Part shown: positions 49,484 through 60,000 of the stretch, piece by piece
Layout of the letters: each line of letters starts with the position of its first letter
How positions within the stretch are numbered: position 1 is the first letter of the stretch
Source of the DNA: Lysinibacillus xylanilyticus
Lineage (GTDB): Bacteria; Bacillota; Bacilli; Bacillales_A; Planococcaceae
Direction: 5' to 3'
Assembly: GCF_001708185.1 (NCBI RefSeq)
Contig: NZ_MDDN01000017.1
Location: forward strand, 1-64,000
DNA: 64,000 nucleotides
Notes under the pieces: generated by a model
Database searches by the model: none
Told to the model about the DNA's origin: nothing
The model's input: the letters and a program-made list of their open reading frames with translations, nothing else
Program-made: the position numbers and the translations under genes

Positions 49484-50068
49484 ATGTTATTCAAAAGAAA
49501 GTGGTCAATTGGCTTAATAGCAGCAGTAGCTTTACTAACATTATCGGCTTGCTCTGCCGATACAACTAAGTCAGAAGCCGATTCAAAAAATAACATCGAA
49601 ACTGAACATAGCACAGAGATGGATCATTCCACGATGAACCATTCAAGCTCTGGCGCAGTACCAACAACTTTGAAAAATGCTGAAAATCCAAAGTTTCCAG
49701 TTGGAAGCATCGCCATTATCACGGATGGACACATGGCAGGTATGAAAGGCGCAGAAGCAACGATTGTTGGCGCTTATGATACGACAGCATACATTATCTC
49801 CTATGAGCCAACTACAGGTGAAAATCGCGTAGAAAATCATAAGTGGGTTATTCATGAGGAATTGATAAATCAAGGTGAGGCTCCATTAGCTCCGGGTACG
49901 GAAGTCAAAACCGATGCATCCCATATGGAAGGCATGGAAAATGCGACTGTCCATATCGATGAGGCAATACAAACGACAGTTTATATGATTGATTATACGT
50001 CTACAACAAATGGCGAGGCTGTAAAAAATCATAAATGGGTTACAGAAGAAGAGCTAGAAGCAAAATAA
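49484..50068 (+). CDS. YdhK-like lipoprotein (DUF1541)
   Basis: I start at ATG 49484 behind GAGGAGGAA. The 194-residue protein has a lipoprotein signal with lipobox LSACS (Cys near 23), a His/Met-rich linker (EMDHSTMNHSSS), then two DUF1541 repeats of about 60 residues: PVGSIAIITDGHMAGMKGAEATIVGAYDTTAYIISY (from about 70) and PGTEVKTDASHMEGMENATVHIDEAIQTTVYMIDY (from about 137). Each repeat holds an M/H patch (DGHMAGM, ASHMEGM), which suggests metal, perhaps copper, binding. The two-component genes lie convergent downstream, and may control it. Confidence 0.85.
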   Translation: MLFKRKWSIGLIAAVALLTLSACSADTTKSEADSKNNIETEHSTEMDHSTMNHSSSGAVPTTLKNAENPKFPVGSIAIITDGHMAGMKGAEATIVGAYDTTAYIISYEPTTGENRVENHKWVIHEELINQGEAPLAPGTEVKTDASHMEGMENATVHIDEAIQTTVYMIDYTSTTNGEAVKNHKWVTEEELEAK

Positions 50069-50211
50069 GAACTAAACGCTAGAGAGCCCGAAGCAAAAAT
50101 AACGCTCCACCACTTTTGTCCGTGGGAGTGAAGCAACCTCAAGGATGTTGCGCTTTAGCCTAGACGACTATGCTCTAAACAGGCAAAAAAATCTATAGTT
50201 TCCTTCATAAC

Positions 50212-50250
50212 AAAAACCAATCTTTGCGGAATCGTCAGAGATTGGTTTTT
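50212..50250 (-). terminator. Bidirectional terminator after the response regulator gene
   Basis: AAAAACCAATCT and AGATTGGTTTTT close a loop of 15 bases. T-runs occur on both strands. The stretch from the lipoprotein stop to this point (50069-50211) has no gene. Confidence 0.88.
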
Positions 50251-50257
50251 CTAGCTT

Positions 50258-50941
50258 CTATTTTCTATTAACTGACCTGTACCATTTGTATCCGATCCCC
50301 CAAACAGTCTGTAAATATTCATCCGCCGGGAAACCGCTTTTCCTTAATTTTTCTCGTAAATTACGGACATGTGAGTCGATTGTTCTATCTTCGATTGATA
50401 CATGATAACCCCAAACAGTACTGATGAGATGCTCCCTTGAAAATACTTTATTTTGATAATCAAGAAATAACGCTAACATCGCAAATTCTTTCGGCGTTAA
50501 AGAAATAGCCTCTTGTTGAAAGGATAATTCAAAGGATTCTTTATTTAAACGGAGCCCTTCAAAGAAAATAACTTTTTCTTCAACTTTCGTTCTTCTTAAT
50601 ACCGCATTTATACGGGCTAGTAACTCTTCCTCATCGAAGGGCTTTAAAATATAGTCGTCTGCCCCAATATTTAACCCATTTATAATATCAGCCTGTTCCC
50701 CTTTTGCTGTTAGCATTATCACTGGTACATCCCAAAACTTCCTTATTTCCTGACAAGCTTGCCAGCCAGCCATCTCTGGCATCATGATATCTAACAGCAC
50801 TAAGTCTACATGATTTTCCTCTAAATAAACTAGAGCATCTTTAGCTGATGACATTGCTTTACAATGAAACGTAGGCTCTAAGTAAAGGATTAGTAAATCT
50901 AACATCCTAGGTTCATCATCAATTAATAATATTGTTTTCAT
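50258..50941 (-). CDS. OmpR-family response regulator
   Basis: The 227-residue protein has a receiver domain with Asp51 in LLDIMMP, the acidic pair IDDEP at 7-11, and Lys near 101 (ILKPFDEEELLARI). The winged-helix output domain is at about 130-222 (LTPKEFAMLALFLDYQNKVFSREHLISTVWG, RTIDSHVRNLREKLR). It follows the histidine kinase by six bases and works with it. Targets are unknown; the convergent YdhK-like gene is a candidate. Confidence 0.92.
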   Translation of the reverse strand: MKTILLIDDEPRMLDLLILYLEPTFHCKAMSSAKDALVYLEENHVDLVLLDIMMPEMAGWQACQEIRKFWDVPVIMLTAKGEQADIINGLNIGADDYILKPFDEEELLARINAVLRRTKVEEKVIFFEGLRLNKESFELSFQQEAISLTPKEFAMLALFLDYQNKVFSREHLISTVWGYHVSIEDRTIDSHVRNLREKLRKSGFPADEYLQTVWGIGYKWYRSVNRK

Positions 50942-50947
50942 TCGTTC

Positions 50948-52312
50948 CTACTCCTTAAACAATAATTCAAAAGTAGTCCCTTTATTTTCCTCACTAAAAA
51001 CGGTTACTTCTCCTCCATGTGCATGTACAAGCTCTTTAACAATAGCAAGGCCTAAACCTGAACCCCCAAGAGCACGCGTACGAGATTTTTCTACTCTATA
51101 AAAGCGTTCAAAAATATAAGGTAAGTCCTTCTTCGGAATCCCTTTTCCAGTATCCTTTATGCTAATTTGTAAATAGCGACTGTGTCTTTTTACAATTATG
51201 GAAGTTGAATCTCCTGAGGAACAATAAGTTAATGCGTTATTTAAAAGATTTAAAATAATTTGTTCAAGTCTTGCCGAATCAGCCATTAATGTTAATCCCT
51301 CTTCACATTGAACAAAAAAGTGTATTTGTTTTTCCTGAAAAGCAGGGCTCAACTTTGTCTCAATATTGGCTAAAAACTTATCCAAATGAAGACTTTCTTT
51401 GTCAATAACAAAAGAGTTTTCATCCATTTTTGCTAAATCAAATAAGTCTTTTATTAAACGAGAAAGTCGATTGGTCTCTTCTATAATAATACCTAAATAC
51501 TTTTGGCGATCCCGCTCCGTTAAATCACGTTTATAGAGAATATCTGTATAGCCTTTTATAAACGTTAATGGTGTTCTAAGCTCATGGGCAATACTTGATA
51601 AAAACTCCTTTCTTTCCTCTCTTAAATGATGTAAATCATCTGATAAAAGCTGTATTGCATTAGAAAGATCACTTAGTTCATCTTTACCATTCGTAGAAAG
51701 GGCCACTGTAAAATCCCCTTTACTCATTTTCAAAGTCGCTTCTTTCATCTGAACTAATGGAAAGGCAAGCTTTCTAGACAGAACAATAATGACTGCAATG
51801 GTCACCACTCCTGAAATAATACCTACAATTAGAAAATGTCTATTTAATCGTTCCATTAATGCATGGATGGAATCTGTATTTTGAAACATAAAAACATATC
51901 CAATTGTCGTTTGCTGTTTTTGGATAGGGCTAATTGTGGAAATATATTTTTCCTCCTGCCAATCCCCCTGCAAAACCTTACCATTATAAGGAACATTATC
52001 TTCGGAATTTTTAATATAAGCTTGTATTTCAGGATGTGGATGTGAAGCAGCTAATATTTTCCCAGTCTTATCTGTAATAACAACATCTGTATTTTCTTTT
52101 GATTCCATTAATACTACGTGAGCTAATGTTTCCTTCTCGAAATTTCGCTCTAATATTGTTCGATGCGAATTTCCCCTTGCCTGCAAGCTCGTTAATTCCT
52201 CTTCAACTCTAGAATTGGTTAAAGAAGCATGTAAAAATAACATCATAAATGTTTCAATACAAAATAATGTGATAAAAAAGATTATTCCTAGCTTAAATGA
52301 AAGTTTTTTCAT
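50948..52312 (-). CDS. Membrane sensor histidine kinase
   Basis: The 454-residue kinase has one N-terminal membrane helix (about 8-30), an outside sensor part to about 155, a second helix (about 158-180), a HAMP linker (about 182-235), HisKA with SSIAHELRTPLTFIKGYTD (about 241-259) and the ATPase motifs NLLNNALTY, DTGKGIPKKDLPYIFERFYR and GGSGLGLAIVKELVHAHGG. The stimulus is unknown. Proximity to a metal-rich lipoprotein makes a metal or envelope signal plausible. Confidence 0.92.
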   Translation of the reverse strand: MKKLSFKLGIIFFITLFCIETFMMLFLHASLTNSRVEEELTSLQARGNSHRTILERNFEKETLAHVVLMESKENTDVVITDKTGKILAASHPHPEIQAYIKNSEDNVPYNGKVLQGDWQEEKYISTISPIQKQQTTIGYVFMFQNTDSIHALMERLNRHFLIVGIISGVVTIAVIIVLSRKLAFPLVQMKEATLKMSKGDFTVALSTNGKDELSDLSNAIQLLSDDLHHLREERKEFLSSIAHELRTPLTFIKGYTDILYKRDLTERDRQKYLGIIIEETNRLSRLIKDLFDLAKMDENSFVIDKESLHLDKFLANIETKLSPAFQEKQIHFFVQCEEGLTLMADSARLEQIILNLLNNALTYCSSGDSTSIIVKRHSRYLQISIKDTGKGIPKKDLPYIFERFYRVEKSRTRALGGSGLGLAIVKELVHAHGGEVTVFSEENKGTTFELLFKE

Positions 52313-52395
52313 CTCTAACCACCAATTTAGGATTTCATAAAAGTATAACGTTAAAGTGTGAAGATTTCATGCAGAAATAAATCTTATAAAACGAG

Positions 52396-52457
52396 AGGTT
52401 GATTTCCGTTCCGGCTGGGCGCTTTCCTTGGGGCGTCCAGCCGGAACGGAAATCAAC
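52396..52457. repeat. Palindromic intergenic repeat, near-perfect copy
   Basis: A 22-bp arm beginning GGTTGATTTCCGTTCC and ending GGCTGG is exactly complementary to the arm at the other side (CCAGCC to GGAAATCAACC), around an 18-base centre with GCGCTTTCCTTGGGGCG. The centre can also pair partly. It matches the copy at 16276-16334. Confidence 0.92.
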
Positions 52458-52554
52458 CACTTCATATAGTATGTATCTTATCGCATGTCACTCTAATTCA
52501 TAATGATAAAACAAAACTTCAGCAATAATGTTTATCTGTGTGAAAGAGTAGCGA

Positions 52555-52672
52555 CTGCAACAACATAAGCGGAGGAAGCAGCCCGACGCTCACCTACAGG
52601 TAAACGAGTAGCATAGAACGGAAATCACCCTCATGTAAAGCGCCACAACATTCAAAAAATTTCCCTTGACCA
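52555..52672. repeat. Dispersed intergenic repeat, inverted copy
   Basis: GGAACGG-type AGAACGGAAATCACCCTCATG is followed by TAAAGCGCCACAACATTCAAA, the reverse complement of the end segment at 15255-15310. The front part (AAGCGGAGGAAGCAGCCCGACG) differs from other copies here but resembles Bacillaceae intergenic palindromes I recall. Confidence 0.65.
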
Positions 52673-52743
52673 TTGTGTTTATCAATACTCAGAGGCGGGG
52701 ACATAAGTATATTTTCAAAGCAAAATTACAATATTTCACATCA

Positions 52744-52792
52744 GAAAAGCGCGAGAAATCAACGTTTCTAAAATTGATTTCTCACGCTTTTT
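52744..52792 (-). terminator. Terminator after the FMN reductase gene
   Basis: AAAGCG-GAGAAATCAA pairs with TTGATTTCTC-CGCTTT across a loop. On the minus strand the stem ends in CTTTTC; on the plus strand in TTTTTAAGG. Confidence 0.8.
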
Positions 52793-52830
52793 AAGGTTTT
52801 GACCAGTTATATCCCAGCTTCTTCTTATCT

Positions 52831-53373
52831 TTAAATGTATTTTTTCATCCAGTTTAAGAAGTTATCAATAACTACATCAAGGAATTTGACAGTACCCTCA
52901 TCTGTTAAATTGCCTTCTCCATCAAACTTAGTGTGTACTGCACCAATATAAACATCATTACCGCTAAGTAATGGTGAATTAACACCAGGTGAGAATAAAA
53001 TATCTCGTAAATGTAATTGTGCTTTAACAGTACCTAAGTTACCCATTGATGCCCCCATCATGAATGATGGCTTGCCAATCATTACTTTGTCCACACGGGA
53101 TAACCAATCGATTGCGTTAACCATTACACCCGGCACAGTTCCATTATACTCTGGTGTCACCCAAAGAACTGCATCCGCCGCTTTTACTTGTGCTTTAAAA
53201 TCAAGTACTATTTGTGGTGCTTCATTTTCAATATCTTGGTTATACATAGGTAAATCCTTTAAACTTAATACTTCAAGATCAAATTTCCCTGCATAACGCT
53301 TTTCAATAAATTTTGCTAATTGCATATTATAAGATTCTTTACGGATACTACCTACGATTGCAACTACTTTCAA
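52831..53373 (-). CDS. NADPH-dependent FMN reductase
   Basis: The 180-residue flavodoxin-fold protein has the FMN phosphate loop VGSIRKESYNMQLA (about 7-20), the ring-contact segment LWVTPEYNGTVPGVMVNAIDWLSR (about 75-98) and MGASMGNLGTVKAQLHLR (about 106-123). It reduces FMN or quinones, azo dyes or chromate at the cost of NAD(P)H. It ends the electrophile block with the nitroreductase and the MhqO-like dioxygenase, so quinone reduction is the likely task. It begins 62 bases after the nitroreductase gene. Confidence 0.88.
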   Translation of the reverse strand: MKVVAIVGSIRKESYNMQLAKFIEKRYAGKFDLEVLSLKDLPMYNQDIENEAPQIVLDFKAQVKAADAVLWVTPEYNGTVPGVMVNAIDWLSRVDKVMIGKPSFMMGASMGNLGTVKAQLHLRDILFSPGVNSPLLSGNDVYIGAVHTKFDGEGNLTDEGTVKFLDVVIDNFLNWMKKYI

Positions 53374-53435
53374 GACGTTTCCTCCCCAATGTGAAAAAAT
53401 TCTTTATTTGTAAATCAATTTCATTGTATACCGAC

Positions 53436-54053
53436 CTAATAATAGGTTGCAAATTCTTCAACTGGTTTTCGATAACCACGTAGGCGGCGACTGCTTTCTT
53501 TTTCCTTACCTATTGTCATCATTAATGCAATTTCATGTGTTTCTGGGACATTAAAAAGAGCTCTCATTTGTTGCTGATCAAAGCCGATCATTGGGCATGT
53601 ATCCCATCCGCGATTTTTGGCTGCTAGCATAAATAACATAGCTGAAAGTGAAGCGTTACGAATGGCTTCCTCCTTCATAAATTCCTCGCCACGTTCTTCA
53701 TAAAATTTAGCGTTTTCATTAACGATATTTTCTAATTCACAAGCGTTAATAATGCCTAAGTCAACCATTCCTTGATTAAGGTTAGCAGTATTTTTATAGG
53801 CTTCTTTATCTCCTAATACAAGTATAACCGCTGAGGCTGAATGCACTTTATATTGCCCGTATGCTGCTTCTCGTACTTTTTCTTTTTTTTCTTCATCTAA
53901 TACAACGATATAATTGGCATGTTGTAAATTAAAGGCGGATGGAACAAGCTTTACATCCTCCAAAATGGGACGTATATCTTCTTCACTCATCTTGATGCCC
54001 TCTATAAAATTATTTGCTGATCGGCGCTTATCTATTAGCTTTGCAAATTCCAT
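53436..54053 (-). CDS. mhqN: Nitroreductase family oxidoreductase (MhqN-like)
   Basis: The 205-residue FMN enzyme has the nitroreductase opening KLIDKRRSANNF (about 5-16), the segment SAFNLQHANYIVV (about 38-50) and the end AAKNRGWDTCPMIGFDQQQMRALFNVPETHEIALMMTIGK. It probably reduces quinones or nitro compounds with NAD(P)H. In Bacillus subtilis mhqN neighbours mhqO under MhqR control, the same pairing as here. A 14-bp perfect hairpin separates it from the upstream mhqO. Confidence 0.85.
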   Translation of the reverse strand: MEFAKLIDKRRSANNFIEGIKMSEEDIRPILEDVKLVPSAFNLQHANYIVVLDEEKKEKVREAAYGQYKVHSASAVILVLGDKEAYKNTANLNQGMVDLGIINACELENIVNENAKFYEERGEEFMKEEAIRNASLSAMLFMLAAKNRGWDTCPMIGFDQQQMRALFNVPETHEIALMMTIGKEKESSRRLRGYRKPVEEFATYY

Positions 54054-54082
54054 CCAGCTGACCTCCTAAGAGTATGTAATTT

Positions 54083-54118
54083 CCATTCAGTAGAGACTTA
54101 TATTTCTCTACTGAATGG
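54083..54118. repeat. Perfect hairpin between mhqO and the nitroreductase gene
   Basis: CCATTCAGTAGAGA and TCTCTACTGAATGG form a 14-bp stem around eight bases. On the minus strand it is followed by AAATTACATAC and not a T-run, so it looks like an mRNA processing or stability element inside the operon. Confidence 0.75.
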
Positions 54119-54129
54119 GATTAAAAGCA

Positions 54130-55113
54130 TTACTCATATTCTTTATCGAACGTAATAGCACTTCTTACAGTGTCAATAGGGCGAACAAGCTCTTCGATTT
54201 GCGCACGCTTTGGCTCTAAAAATGGTGGTAACGATAATTTTTCACCTAAAGTTTCATACGGCTCATCTCCCATAAATCCTGGGTCATCAGTAGCTAACTC
54301 GAATAAAATTTGTGGTGCTACTCGTGCATAAAGTGATTCAAAGAAGTGTCGATTTACGTAACCAGAAGTATGGAAACCAAAGCTTTCAAATCGTTCAGTC
54401 CATTCATCTAATACAGCACGATTCTCTACGCGGAATGCTGCATGGTGCACTGTACCGAAGCCTTGTCGAGCTACTGGTAAAACTGTGTTAAATTCTACAA
54501 CCATTTGCGCACCATTTCCGCCTTCTCCAACCTCAAATAGATGGAAATCTCCTTCCTCCGCAATTTCTGTAAAGAGCATCACCTTCTCTAGCACCTCTTT
54601 GAAATGTTTAAAGTTAGCAACTCTAACAAAAACCGGACCTAAGCCTGTAATCGCATATTCAAGTGGTATCGGCCCATCTTGCCATGGTGTACCTGAAGCA
54701 ACACCTGTATTATTTTCATCAGAGATCAGTTGATATTGCTGATCGTCAAAATCGACGAAAGATAAAGTTTTCTTACCAAACTGTTCTTTAATACCTGTAT
54801 GTTTAATATTTAATCGATCAAATCGTTTTAGCCAATAGTCCAATGCAACATCTGTCGGAACTCGGAATGATGTTTTTGAAATTTCGTTTGTTCCATGTAC
54901 ACCTTTTTGAATGTTCGGGAAGTCAAAGAAAGTCATATCTGTGCCAGCACTTCCTTTATCATCTGCAAAGAATAAATGATATGTTTGGATATCATCCTGA
55001 TTAACCGTTTTTTTCACTAATCGCATGCCTAATACATGAGTAAAAAATTTATAATTCTCTTCTGCACTACTTGTAATAGCAGTAACGTGATGAATTCCTT
55101 TTAAATGGTTCAT
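54130..55113 (-). CDS. mhqO: Ring-cleaving dioxygenase / glyoxalase-fold protein (MhqO type)
   Basis: The 327-residue protein has two vicinal-oxygen-chelate halves. GIHHVTAITSSAEENYKFFTHVLGMRLVKKTVN at 5-37 and GFGTVHHAAFRVEN (about 219-232) supply the metal His residues, and ARVAPQILFELATDDPGF (about 266-283) the metal Glu. This layout is that of MhqO/MhqA, which protect Bacillus subtilis from hydroquinone. An AGGAGG site precedes ATG, and a perfect MhqR-type palindrome lies 18 bases further upstream. Confidence 0.93.
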   Translation of the reverse strand: MNHLKGIHHVTAITSSAEENYKFFTHVLGMRLVKKTVNQDDIQTYHLFFADDKGSAGTDMTFFDFPNIQKGVHGTNEISKTSFRVPTDVALDYWLKRFDRLNIKHTGIKEQFGKKTLSFVDFDDQQYQLISDENNTGVASGTPWQDGPIPLEYAITGLGPVFVRVANFKHFKEVLEKVMLFTEIAEEGDFHLFEVGEGGNGAQMVVEFNTVLPVARQGFGTVHHAAFRVENRAVLDEWTERFESFGFHTSGYVNRHFFESLYARVAPQILFELATDDPGFMGDEPYETLGEKLSLPPFLEPKRAQIEELVRPIDTVRSAITFDKEYE

Positions 55114-55130
55114 TCTATATTCCTCCTATT

Positions 55131-55148
55131 TATCTCGAATTCGAGATA
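55131..55148. promoter_or_regulatory. MhqR-type operator before mhqO
   Basis: TATCTCGAATTCGAGATA is a perfect 18-bp palindrome of the kind recognised by MhqR in Bacillus, lying just ahead of the mhqO ribosome-binding site. A repressor here would overlap the transcription start. Confidence 0.88.
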
Positions 55149-55172
55149 TTTACGTAAAAATTTTTTATTATT

Positions 55173-55406
55173 TTATTCCAAGCCAACCTTTTTCAAAGAC
55201 AGAATCATTGTTTCCATCTCTAGTTGATCTAATACTTTAAATTTTTTGTTCATGCTTTGGAAATATTTCTTCCATAAAGTATTTCCTTCATATGTTAATA
55301 AATCATATGTGACACGACGATCCTTCGGGCAAGCATGTCGAGACACAAAGCCTTTTTGTTCGAGCTTATCAAACCAATTATCTTTAATTCGAGATAATAA
55401 TATCAT
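55173..55406 (-). pseudogene. 5'-truncated MarR-family regulator (MhqR remnant)
   Basis: Only the back half of a MarR protein can be read: DKLEQKGFVSRHACPKDRRVTYDLLT covers the end of the recognition helix and the wing, followed by the C-terminal dimer helix. Normal members have about 140-150 residues, and here the helices that come first are missing. The first ten codons of this frame are not MarR-like but run over an 18-bp MhqR-type operator (55379-55396), so the frame is a fusion of the operator to the remaining gene end. I see no AGGAGG ahead of ATG. It is probably non-functional, though a short dimerising peptide could still be made. Confidence 0.75.
55379..55396. promoter_or_regulatory. 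Second MhqR-type operator, diverged, at the truncated regulator
   Basis: TATCTTTAATTCGAGATA matches the palindrome before mhqO at 16 of 18 positions. In a complete locus it would be the autoregulatory site of the MarR gene; here the residual coding part begins right at it. Confidence 0.75.
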
Positions 55407-55512
55407 ATAGACTTCTTAACAGCAAATCTTTTGTATTACTGTTATCTCCTATAGTACAATGTTGGCTCATTTATTCGTGCCCTTATGGGAGACGATCATC
55501 CTAGCGAAATTA

Positions 55513-55546
55513 AAAGAGCCAGTAATTATAGTGTTAACTAGCTCTT
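55513..55546 (-). terminator. Terminator after the YusW-like gene
   Basis: On the minus strand AAGAGC-AGT pairs with ACT-GCTCTT around a loop and is followed by TTAATTT. Confidence 0.7.
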
Positions 55547-55572
55547 CATATTATAAATGCAACGAAGTTTTG

Positions 55573-56037
55573 TTATTTAATTCGTTTAAATTCCTTTTCA
55601 TTACCATCAGCAAACTCAACTTCAACCTCAATCGATTGGAAGTCTTCAGTAATATGAAATACTGAGATTACTTGGTCTATTACCTCATCATTCGGTGTAG
55701 TAGAATCAAATGTCAGTTGCTTGAACAATGGTTCTAATTTTGTATAAGCAGCATCACCTTGAAGCTTTTCATTCTTACGTTCATCCTTTAGTCTCGCCTC
55801 TATGCCGGATTTTTTATTTTCATATTCCACCTCATAAGAATCCGTTGCAGAATAATCAACATCCAATGAAAGTTCCAAAAAATTAAACGTTATTTGTTCA
55901 GTAGCAGTATCGCTCACCTGCTGTCCTGTATTTTGTTTAGTTGGAGCATTAGCAGGGACGTCTTGAACTTTTTCCTTGGTACAACCATAAAGTATGACTG
56001 TCATTAACGAAACAACTAACCATAATTTCATTCTCAT
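55573..56037 (-). CDS. YusW-like lipoprotein
   Basis: I start at ATG 56037, seven bases after AAAGGAG. The 154-residue product has a lipoprotein signal ending in LYGC, a spacer, then a YusW domain: FNFLELSLDVDYSATDSYEVEYENKKSGIEARLKDERKNEKLQGDAAYTKLEPLFKQLTF is split over about 51-110, matching the small beta/alpha fold of YusW. It is fixed to the outer side of the membrane. The function is unknown. It is the last gene after the YcdB-SLH gene, with a terminator between. Confidence 0.8.
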   Translation of the reverse strand: MRMKLWLVVSLMTVILYGCTKEKVQDVPANAPTKQNTGQQVSDTATEQITFNFLELSLDVDYSATDSYEVEYENKKSGIEARLKDERKNEKLQGDAAYTKLEPLFKQLTFDSTTPNDEVIDQVISVFHITEDFQSIEVEVEFADGNEKEFKRIK

Positions 56038-56089
56038 CTTGGCACTCCTTTCTTCAACTATTATTTCCATAATCGCCTATAAACAAACT

Positions 56090-56127
56090 AAAAAGAGTAT
56101 CCCCAACTTAATTAGGAGATACCCTTT
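56090..56127 (-). terminator. Terminator after the YcdB-SLH gene
   Basis: On the minus strand AAGGGTATCTCC pairs with GGGGATACTCTT around a loop and is followed by TTTTTAG. Confidence 0.75.
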
Positions 56128-56137
56128 TCATTATCGA

Positions 56138-58360
56138 TTACCAGTAATTACGACTGCTGTTATTTTCATTAACTGCTTTTGCTAAACGAACTGTTGAAAC
56201 AGCTAAATCTGCATATGTCACTTTCTCAGTAGCATTAAATTTATTTTGCTGTGCATCCATTAGCCCCATTGCGCTTACTAAAGCAACATAGCCTGCATGC
56301 GCTGAATCAATTGTGCCTGCATCAGTGAAGTTTAATTTATAAATGTCACTATGTTTTGCTGCTTTTTCTAAATCTAGTGCACGTACTAACCATTGTGCCA
56401 GCTCTTGACGAGTCAATGTTGCATCAACTTCAAATTTATCCGCAGGTTGTAACATACCCATTCTTACAGCTTGTTCAACAGTTTCATATAATGGATGCTT
56501 TTTGTCAATATTATTAAAGGATTGCTTATCGTTGTCGCTACCATAAGGACCATACTCAAAGTATCCGTATGATAATGATTTTACTAATATTTTCAAAGCT
56601 TCTCCCTTTGTTACAGCTGCATCAGCATTAAAGTTTGCTGGATCTTTAACGTCTAACACATTTTGGCGTAGTAAATAAGTTAGTTCTTCTCCAGCTGTTG
56701 GATGTGAAATAGCTGGTTTTTCTTTAGAATCATCCGCTTTCAGTAGCCATTCGCCAGTTGTTGCATCAATACTATTGAATAGGATTCCATTATAAACTGG
56801 AGAGTATACTAAATTATAGTGGTTATTATCCTCTCCATCCTGTTTTGAATACTGCAGATTTAGTTTTAGCCCATCACTGAACATTGTTTTTGCTTTATCA
56901 GTAGAAATAGCCTTGTTTACAGATGGCCAATTATCAATCTTTTGATTATTAACATGTAAAGCACCTAATTTCCCATCTGCATTAATAGCAACAGAAATTT
57001 CATCCCCCATTACAGCAATGCCATTAACAATACGTGGGAACGAGAAGTTATATTGCTTACTATCTTTATCATACATTGGATCTTCTAGTGGTTTTGAATA
57101 GTTATGAAGATGTGACGGAGCGAACTCTTTTAAATAGCCAATTGCCTTTGCTAACGCAGCATCTTTTGAGATTGGCTCTACTTTATCATTCATCTCAAAG
57201 AATTCATTACCCATATTCCAGAAGTTTACAATCTCACCTGTTGCTTTGTTCACTTCAATTGATGAGCCTGAGCCATGATTTCCATAATCATACATGTAAT
57301 TTACTGAATAAATTGTCTCGCCATTTTCATTTTCTCTTTCATCAATCGCTTCAATTCGTAGCTTTACTTTGTCTGAATCAACTTTTAAGAGAGACTTTGC
57401 TAACTCTTCAACTTCAGCTACTGTCATGTTCTTCTTTCTAGGCTCAAGCGGTTGTGCTGAAAGTTTTTCAACACCTTTTGTTTTTGGTACTTGTGAAGTA
57501 AAACCATTTGTTGTTTGCCATTGTCCATTTAAAGCATTTACACCCATGAAGCTAGAAGGCATGTACACAAGCTTAGCAATTGCTTCTTCTGATTGGTAGT
57601 TATAGTCAATAAAATAACGTAACTCTACTGACAAGTTTTCGCGAATCTGTGCAAGTATGTCTGCCTCACTCTTTTTCTGTTCTAAGCTGTCAAATGTTGA
57701 TTTACTAGTTGACTCAGTATTACGATACATACTCACAACTTCACCATTTGCTAGAACTTCAATATGCATATTCTCGTCACTAAATGGCACACCATTATGA
57801 GTTGGCGAATAAGCGAATGAATACGAAATTGGTTCAGTTATCGGTCTACTGAAATAAAAATCATCATTCCCTAAATCTTCACGAAGTTTGTAATTAGCAG
57901 TATTAGGCATTTTCTTTAGGAAATCTTCAGCAACTTTTTTTGCATCAGCCTTTGAATATTTAGCAGGATAAATTGCATCCGCTACATTAGCAGGTTGATA
58001 GTAGAAGTGTTCTAATTCTAAATTGTCGCCTTTAAAAGTAAAACCACCAAAAACGTCTTTGCCATTGACTTTCTTATGGAAGCTTAAATCATAGCGTACC
58101 GTTTTATCATCACTATAGTAATGCCCTTGTCCCATGTCGAAATCATTTTCTGTGACAAAATTAAATTTATCTCCAAACAGTGTCTGCACTTGCTTAACAA
58201 GCATACTTTTTGTTACTTTAGTTTCTTTTGAATCTACTTGAATTGCAACTCTTTCTGGAGATTCCTTAACATTTGCAGAAGCCTGTGCCATTGGAGAAAG
58301 TACCCCAACAGAAAATGCTGTAGACGTTAGTATAATACCTAATTTTTTAAACTTACCCAA
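56138..58360 (-). CDS. Surface protein with YcdB/YcdC (PepSY-like) domains and SLH repeats
   Basis: The 740-residue protein has a signal peptide cut near QASA (about 29). Residues about 45-540 form several YcdB/YcdC-type PepSY-like modules (DMGQGHYYSDDKTVRYDLSF, YSFAYSPTHNGVPFSDENMHIEVLANGEVVSMYRN, YNLVYSPVYNGILFNSIDATTGEW). The last 190 residues hold three diverged SLH units (TKGEALKILVKSL, TRQELAQWLVRALDL, TYADLAVSTVRLAKAV). It is thus anchored to the cell-wall polymer and may bind or inhibit secreted peptidases. It is the second SLH protein in the window. Confidence 0.85.
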   Translation of the reverse strand: MGKFKKLGIILTSTAFSVGVLSPMAQASANVKESPERVAIQVDSKETKVTKSMLVKQVQTLFGDKFNFVTENDFDMGQGHYYSDDKTVRYDLSFHKKVNGKDVFGGFTFKGDNLELEHFYYQPANVADAIYPAKYSKADAKKVAEDFLKKMPNTANYKLREDLGNDDFYFSRPITEPISYSFAYSPTHNGVPFSDENMHIEVLANGEVVSMYRNTESTSKSTFDSLEQKKSEADILAQIRENLSVELRYFIDYNYQSEEAIAKLVYMPSSFMGVNALNGQWQTTNGFTSQVPKTKGVEKLSAQPLEPRKKNMTVAEVEELAKSLLKVDSDKVKLRIEAIDERENENGETIYSVNYMYDYGNHGSGSSIEVNKATGEIVNFWNMGNEFFEMNDKVEPISKDAALAKAIGYLKEFAPSHLHNYSKPLEDPMYDKDSKQYNFSFPRIVNGIAVMGDEISVAINADGKLGALHVNNQKIDNWPSVNKAISTDKAKTMFSDGLKLNLQYSKQDGEDNNHYNLVYSPVYNGILFNSIDATTGEWLLKADDSKEKPAISHPTAGEELTYLLRQNVLDVKDPANFNADAAVTKGEALKILVKSLSYGYFEYGPYGSDNDKQSFNNIDKKHPLYETVEQAVRMGMLQPADKFEVDATLTRQELAQWLVRALDLEKAAKHSDIYKLNFTDAGTIDSAHAGYVALVSAMGLMDAQQNKFNATEKVTYADLAVSTVRLAKAVNENNSSRNYW

Positions 58361-58494
58361 AATATCCCTCCTAAAATACTATTTACCATAATTATAATAT
58401 ACATTACCAAAAATAGAAATGATATTTACAGATTTTTTCCACTTTGAAGAAAATAGATTGGGCAACTCGCGATTTCTATATCTCCTAAAGCTTC

Positions 58495-59784
58495 TCATTT
58501 CTTCACCACATCAAAATTCGATCCAATTAATAACCAATTTTGCGGGAATGGTAGACCCAACTTCCAATAGCCTACTCCTCGAAGTTTGTACTGTTTGATT
58601 AAATTGAACTTCGCCTGAATGGATCTTGCATCCTCGAACCATACGATATGTGCTTTACCTTGCTCATCATAGTATTCAAAGAAAGGTGCCTGAGATCTCA
58701 AATCATACTGAATAGCGGCATTATATTTCTTAGCAATCTCGATAGCTGCTTGTGGACTAACTGCTTTTGCATATGGCCCCCCTTGTACAAAGGGCAGCGT
58801 CCAGTCATAGCCATATAAATTTTGTCCTAGTAAAATTTTGTTCCGAGGTATTTCACTTACTGCATATTTTACAACCTCCTCTACCTCTGGAAGTGGCGAC
58901 ACTGCCATAGGAGGCCCGGCAGAATATCCCCATTCATAAGTCATTAGCATAACAAAATCGACTATTTCGCCATGTGCCTTATAATCATGTGCCTCAGTCC
59001 ACGGACCTCGCTCACTAGCACTTGTTTTGGGAGCGAGCGCTGTCGATACTGTATAGCCTTGTGGATGGAATCGGTTCACAGCTCTCCTTAAAAAATTGTT
59101 ATACGCCTCGCGTTGATCGCCCGGCAAATGCTCAAAATCGAAATGTATATCTTTAACGTTTCCTAATCGCTTTGCCTCTTCAAGAATATTATCGAAGAGC
59201 AAATCCTGTACTGCTGTACTTTGAAAAATATCTCTTGCTAACTCACCACTAAAAGTAAAATCCTCCAAATTTGAGACAACCATTGCTAGAGAAGCTCCTG
59301 TATCATTAGCAATTTGCGGTACACCTTGACTTGGCGGTCTCTTAAGCGTCCCATCTCGTCTTGCCTCATAGCTAAACAAAGCAAGATAAGTTAAAAATGG
59401 ACCCGCTTCTCTTGCCTGATTCAATAATGGTTCACTAACGGATGCCCCTCTCGGCTCTAAATACGCCAATGTTTCAGCTCTTGTTTTTGGTTGAGGTGGA
59501 ATATAAAGTCTCAGACCCACTGATAAAGGTTGATTCGGGTTAATACCGTTTACTTGTGCGAGCGTTAAATAATTGATGCCAAAGCGTTGGCTAATAGTCC
59601 AAAGACTATCCCCTGGCTGCACATAATAAAAGCTCCCGACAATTGGAATCACAAGAGCTTGCCCTACAACTAATCGATTGGGTTCAGGAATTTGATTGGC
59701 ATCTACAATTTTCTGAACTGTCGTCCCATAAGCCTGCGCAATCCCCCAGACAGAATCCCCTGCTCGTACAACATGTATTTGAAT
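58495..59784 (-). CDS. Spore-type LysM/GH18 hydrolase (YaaH/YdhD-like), apparent ATT start
   Basis: The gene reads as 429 residues only if it starts at ATT 59784: AAAGGAGG sits seven bases before it, no ATG, GTG or TTG lies in frame upstream of the first LysM domain, and the start gives MQIHVVRAGDSVWGIAQAYG, a normal family opening. The first ATG (59652) would lose the first LysM. Two LysM domains (about 2-47 and 53-97) are followed by a GH18 domain with the catalytic pattern IHFDFEHL (about 192). It should act on spore cortex or coat peptidoglycan. Family length is about 430, matching this reading. Confidence 0.87.
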   Translation of the reverse strand: MQIHVVRAGDSVWGIAQAYGTTVQKIVDANQIPEPNRLVVGQALVIPIVGSFYYVQPGDSLWTISQRFGINYLTLAQVNGINPNQPLSVGLRLYIPPQPKTRAETLAYLEPRGASVSEPLLNQAREAGPFLTYLALFSYEARRDGTLKRPPSQGVPQIANDTGASLAMVVSNLEDFTFSGELARDIFQSTAVQDLLFDNILEEAKRLGNVKDIHFDFEHLPGDQREAYNNFLRRAVNRFHPQGYTVSTALAPKTSASERGPWTEAHDYKAHGEIVDFVMLMTYEWGYSAGPPMAVSPLPEVEEVVKYAVSEIPRNKILLGQNLYGYDWTLPFVQGGPYAKAVSPQAAIEIAKKYNAAIQYDLRSQAPFFEYYDEQGKAHIVWFEDARSIQAKFNLIKQYKLRGVGYWKLGLPFPQNWLLIGSNFDVVKK

Positions 59785-59960
59785 GTCAGTGCCTCCTTTG
59801 AAATATTAAACTGTCGATTCATTACAGTCATACTTAAATTACATTTACCCGAGTATTTTAAAAATAAACATCTTTTGCAATGAACCGGACAATACCAATT
59901 AATCTTATGACAATGGAAATAGCTTTATTCGGTTATTTGCTTCTAATAAAATTGATAAAC

Positions 59961-60000
59961 AAAAAAGCATTCGTTGCATATAGACGCATCGAATGCTTTG
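59961..60000 (-). terminator. Terminator after the ECF operon
   Basis: On the minus strand AAAGCATTCGATGC and GCAACGAATGCTTT form a stem followed by TTTGTTT. Confidence 0.85.

Follow-up and report, generated by a model that had tools for sequence, protein, structure and literature searches.

The window, as we call the whole 64,000-nucleotide stretch of Lysinibacillus xylanilyticus DNA analysed here, carries on its minus strand a block of genes for a ring-cleaving dioxygenase, a nitroreductase and an NADPH-dependent FMN reductase and, upstream of them, the remains of an MhqR-type regulator gene together with two MhqR-type operators (Table 1). A sequence-only reading of the window had described a detoxification block that keeps its operator, and the three genes and both operators were indeed found intact. 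The dioxygenase is 97% identical to the copy of the nearest species and has 1zsw, 3oaj ('mhqO') and 4huz as its PDB relatives. Of these, 1zsw (glyoxalase family) is closer to it than B. subtilis MhqO (3oaj), which leaves the label mhqO uncertain; two further paralogues of it, 37-38% identical, are present in the genome. Two intergenic segments of the window (52388-52425 and 52604-52685) also match, in inverted orientation, a second site at the locus of the nearest relative and are perhaps a dispersed intergenic repeat.

Table 1. Features of the locus and the unlinked paralogue
Feature	Position	Strand	Basis or remark
NADPH-dependent FMN reductase, intact	52831..53373	-	Pfam PF03358
Nitroreductase, intact	53436..54053	-	Pfam PF00881
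Ring-cleaving dioxygenase, MhqO/MhqE/MhqA class, intact, 327 aa	54130..55113	-	Pfam glyoxalase
Operator TATCTCGAATTCGAGATA	55131..55148	-	18/18 match, directly upstream of the dioxygenase gene
Remnant of linked MhqR-type gene, codon 71 onward	55173..55372	-	DNA alignments, Pfam MarR profile
77-aa ORF	55173-55406	-	Open from ATG to stop
Deletion junction, 3 bases GGT	55373..55375	-	Nearest relative has 242 bp there
Operator TATCTCGAATTAAAGATA	55379..55396	-	16/18 match; lost regulator's own promoter; conserved in genus
-10 element TATTAT of lost regulator's promoter	55397..55402	-	Directly before operator; kept in nearly all of 31 genus promoters
-35 element TTGCTG, 17-bp spacer	55420..55425	-	TTG in 31/31 aligned genus promoters
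MhqR1, full-length MhqR-type paralogue	C1:857149-857556		49% identity, E 2e-41 to intact linked orthologue (own-genome search)

Matches to the MhqR-type operator occur twice in the 64 kb, against 0.04 expected from shuffles. They have the form of an MhqR regulon operator, an 18-bp palindrome (TATCTCGAA-TTCGAGATA) overlapping the promoter, and the nearest species has the same letters at both sites. The site before the block, called perfect by the earlier reading, is so at every position, and its location is shared with relatives, usually with 0-3 mismatches. The second site, for which the same reading had counted 16 matches of 18, has that score and is the conserved operator of the linked regulator's promoter, present as TATCTCGAATTAAAGATA in most relatives. 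The order TTGnnn, 17 bp, TATTAT, operator recurs in nearly all of the 31 aligned genus promoters. We called this promoter by its conservation across congeners; a generic promoter scan returned hits no more numerous than in shuffles. The S. aureus mhqRED operator (TATCTCGAA-aTCGAaATA, 9-9 bp) overlaps the transcription start, spanning -6 to +12 (PMC6798810); the geometry is the same in the window, and by analogy transcription of the lost gene would start at about 55390.

Lesions in the regulator gene were mapped by MAFFT DNA alignment with the three nearest relatives, by an alignment of 30 orthologues and by direct matching of the flanks. Compared with the nearest relative, 242 bp running from just past the operator to codon 71 have been replaced by GGT, a loss that removed the Shine-Dalgarno site, the start codon, the N-terminal dimer helix and the DNA-contact loop. 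The earlier proposal of a regulator without its front half, with a deletion that begins in the promoter-operator and ends near codon 70, is therefore accurate as to the breakpoint and the missing part (the remnant frame covers only positions 37-58 of the 59 in the Pfam MarR profile). That a single deletion accounts for the damage is ruled out by three more frame-changing indels relative to the intact orthologues, of -1 (about 55275), -11 (about 55238) and -4 (about 55181); together the -1 and the -11 restore the frame; the -4 changes the C-terminal end. Lineage-specific substitutions are also present in the remnant, for instance D for a conserved V. In S. aureus MhqR, S65 and S66 are essential for DNA binding, and F11, F39, E43 and H111 are quinone-pocket residues (PMC12893000). 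When aligned with that protein, the remnant lacks counterparts of S65, S66, F11, F39 and E43, and the reading frame of its H111 region is disrupted by the -1 and -11 indels. What is left is a scrambled C-terminal part and not a full-length MarR fold with a winged helix-turn-helix; judging from the residues lost or scrambled, it would be unable to act as a repressor.

The gene was compared in relatives, a check that the earlier reading had proposed. The linked gene (MhqR2) is uninterrupted in 31 of the 31 other genus genomes searched and broken only in the window genome, and wherever the dioxygenase locus of congeners was read, an intact linked gene occupies the place of the remnant. Since all 31 of these other Lysinibacillus species genomes carry the gene uninterrupted, the window copy is, on sequence grounds, an eroding pseudogene descended from an MhqR-type MarR gene. 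A partial search of the literature mentioning MhqR found no natural loss of a linked mhqR described. In one congener it is the dioxygenase (G004:C1:4920613-4921407) that has an apparent in-frame internal deletion (residues about 161-222, leaving a 265-aa frame), and there the linked MhqR is intact.

The 77-aa open frame had been read as a regulator remnant fused to its own operator. Its first 12 residues are promoter, operator and junction DNA, so that the operator part is non-coding promoter sequence. Since its ATG (55406) falls within the conserved promoter, at about -16 relative to the predicted transcription start, since the Shine-Dalgarno site is deleted, and since the same MLLLSRIKD... 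frame also runs over relatives' promoters, where it reaches stops in most of those printed, we regard the apparent fusion as an accidental open frame and no gene.

A second MhqR-like gene was sought, again as the earlier reading had suggested, and a full-length paralogue, MhqR1, was found unlinked to the window; the next MarR proteins of the genome are far weaker (27%, E 2e-11). MhqR1 is present in 32 of 32 genus genomes, and across the 15 congeners compared it is 87-95% identical and adjoins the same sensor-kinase gene. In the PDB it matches S. aureus MhqR best (9QDR, E 1e-28), a sequence relationship that places it in the MhqR family. The name MhqR is based on PDB matches and published papers, an NCBIfam scan having returned no MhqR model. 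In a tree whose long branches make its details rough, MhqR1 groups with unlinked MhqR genes from other genera in a clade (96/94) that is separate from the linked copies. The family contact loop is S-S/G-S, with S or G permitted at the variable position (PMC12893000), and the A-S-G-S of MhqR1 fits this motif. Counterparts of F39, E43 and H111 are present in MhqR1; the paralogues differ at contact-loop position 65 (S in MhqR2, G in MhqR1) and at quinone-pocket position 11 (F in MhqR2, Y in MhqR1), and their recognition segments are nearly identical (ASSSITYVIDKLEQKG and ASGSITYVIDKLEKRG).

The window genome as a whole has seven operator sites. Those outside the window precede what we take, from the sequences of the products, to be a YceI-like gene, a MarR-dioxygenase operon, an azoreductase, an MhqD-like esterase and an FMN reductase-dioxygenase operon. 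The site just upstream of the YceI-like gene (C1:888364-888381) is a second perfect MhqR-type operator; a YceI-like gene is absent from the MhqR targets named in the literature examined. At C34:217423-218945, a MarR gene (C34:218461-218799), about 19% identical to MhqR, and a second dioxygenase gene form an apparent operon behind the operator TATCTTGAATTCGAGATA; MhqR operators may be shared with, or contested by, this MarR protein.

We also examined operator use by dioxygenase genes in other genomes, counting sites with ≤3 mismatches within 250 bp upstream of the gene. Such an operator is carried by 37 of the 67 dioxygenase loci that have no adjacent MhqR. Four genomes (Robertmurraya, Metasolibacillus, Heyndrickxia and Bacillus pinisoli) have an MhqR1-type gene as their only MhqR-like gene, judged at E up to 1e-15; in all four the operator stands before the dioxygenase gene, with 2-6 operators genome-wide and zero matches to a reversed control pattern. 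In five genomes without MhqR-like genes there were zero such operators. In Bacillus pinisoli, an operator-like site also lies just before the unlinked-type MhqR gene itself. Regulation in trans only is an arrangement common outside Lysinibacillus.

The most likely explanation, which we hold with fair though not full confidence, is that the linked, autoregulated MhqR2 has become a pseudogene in the window, at the level of the species or the strain, and that the block is kept regulated by MhqR1. MhqR2, which in the rest of Lysinibacillus would be autoregulated and immediately precedes the quinone-detoxification block, has been lost here; the promoter-operators survive, that of the lost gene as well as that of the block. 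MhqR1, which on the indirect, comparative evidence probably serves the window operator, would bind the same operators and hold the block repressed until quinone binds it, so that quinone induction of the block may be near normal. Against such a takeover, the C34 MarR gene, itself behind an operator of the same type, might bind the window operator instead. The differences between the paralogues at positions 65 and 11 also count against it. The congeners keep both paralogues, which suggests that redundancy between them is probably incomplete; since both are kept everywhere else in the genus, the loss is probably not wholly neutral. A rewired regulon, in which the block answers only to MhqR1 or to a third MarR protein, from tandem operator-controlled promoters and with a changed set point, is a possibility that we entertain tentatively.

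The sequence-only reading had the block possibly constitutively on if no other MhqR exists; a full-length MhqR1 is present here as throughout the genus, which is one half of what that reading had said would refute it. Even so, MhqR1 might serve the operators poorly and leave the block constitutively on or its basal level clearly raised. The retention of both paralogues in all congeners would fit such separate roles, the mhqR mutant of S. aureus is derepressed and that of B. subtilis is described as expressing these genes constitutively (PMC6798810), and about 240 bp, in which no terminator was found, now separate the block from the lost regulator's promoter upstream of it. We nevertheless consider it rather unlikely: a full-length MhqR1 remains, the same operator precedes the dioxygenase gene in MhqR1-only genomes, and both window operators are unchanged from the nearest species. 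That an intact gene was misassembled or missequenced is very improbable, even for a draft genome of 48 contigs that is the only one of its species among the genomes compared, because the 200-bp remnant shows four separate indels, novel junction bases and lineage-specific substitutions between intact flanking genes; moreover, there is no N within 50,000-60,000 and no second copy of the linked gene elsewhere in the genome. Least credible of all is a functional mini-regulator, for instance a dominant-negative partner, made from the 77-aa frame, which is open from ATG to stop but starts in promoter DNA, shares its upstream frame with relatives, and has lost dimer helix 1 and the DNA-contact loop, with helix 5 scrambled by internal frameshifts.

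In S. aureus mhqRED, as at the locus described here, dioxygenase genes are preceded by an autoregulated repressor of the MarR type (PMC6798810, PMC12893000; PDB 9QDR); in the window, by contrast, the linked repressor gene is broken and an unlinked paralogue remains, and the genome has several operator sites where S. aureus has one operon. The genome's operator set is similar to the regulon of B. subtilis MhqR (YkvE), in which one repressor controls several operator-bearing detoxification operons (azoR2, mhqNOP, mhqED and mhqA), MhqR1 being only a candidate counterpart of YkvE. Unlike B. subtilis, Lysinibacillus normally has an additional linked MhqR copy, the one lost here. A broken repressor beside intact operators predicts by itself neither constitutive expression nor tolerance, since the operators can be served by a paralogue; this is probably ordinary gene decay, with the genes of the block still switched normally. 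As a natural knockout, the locus offers a way to ask why two MhqR-type repressors are maintained in Lysinibacillus and, if the regulon has been rewired, the species would be a natural test of the purpose of the linked second MhqR copy.
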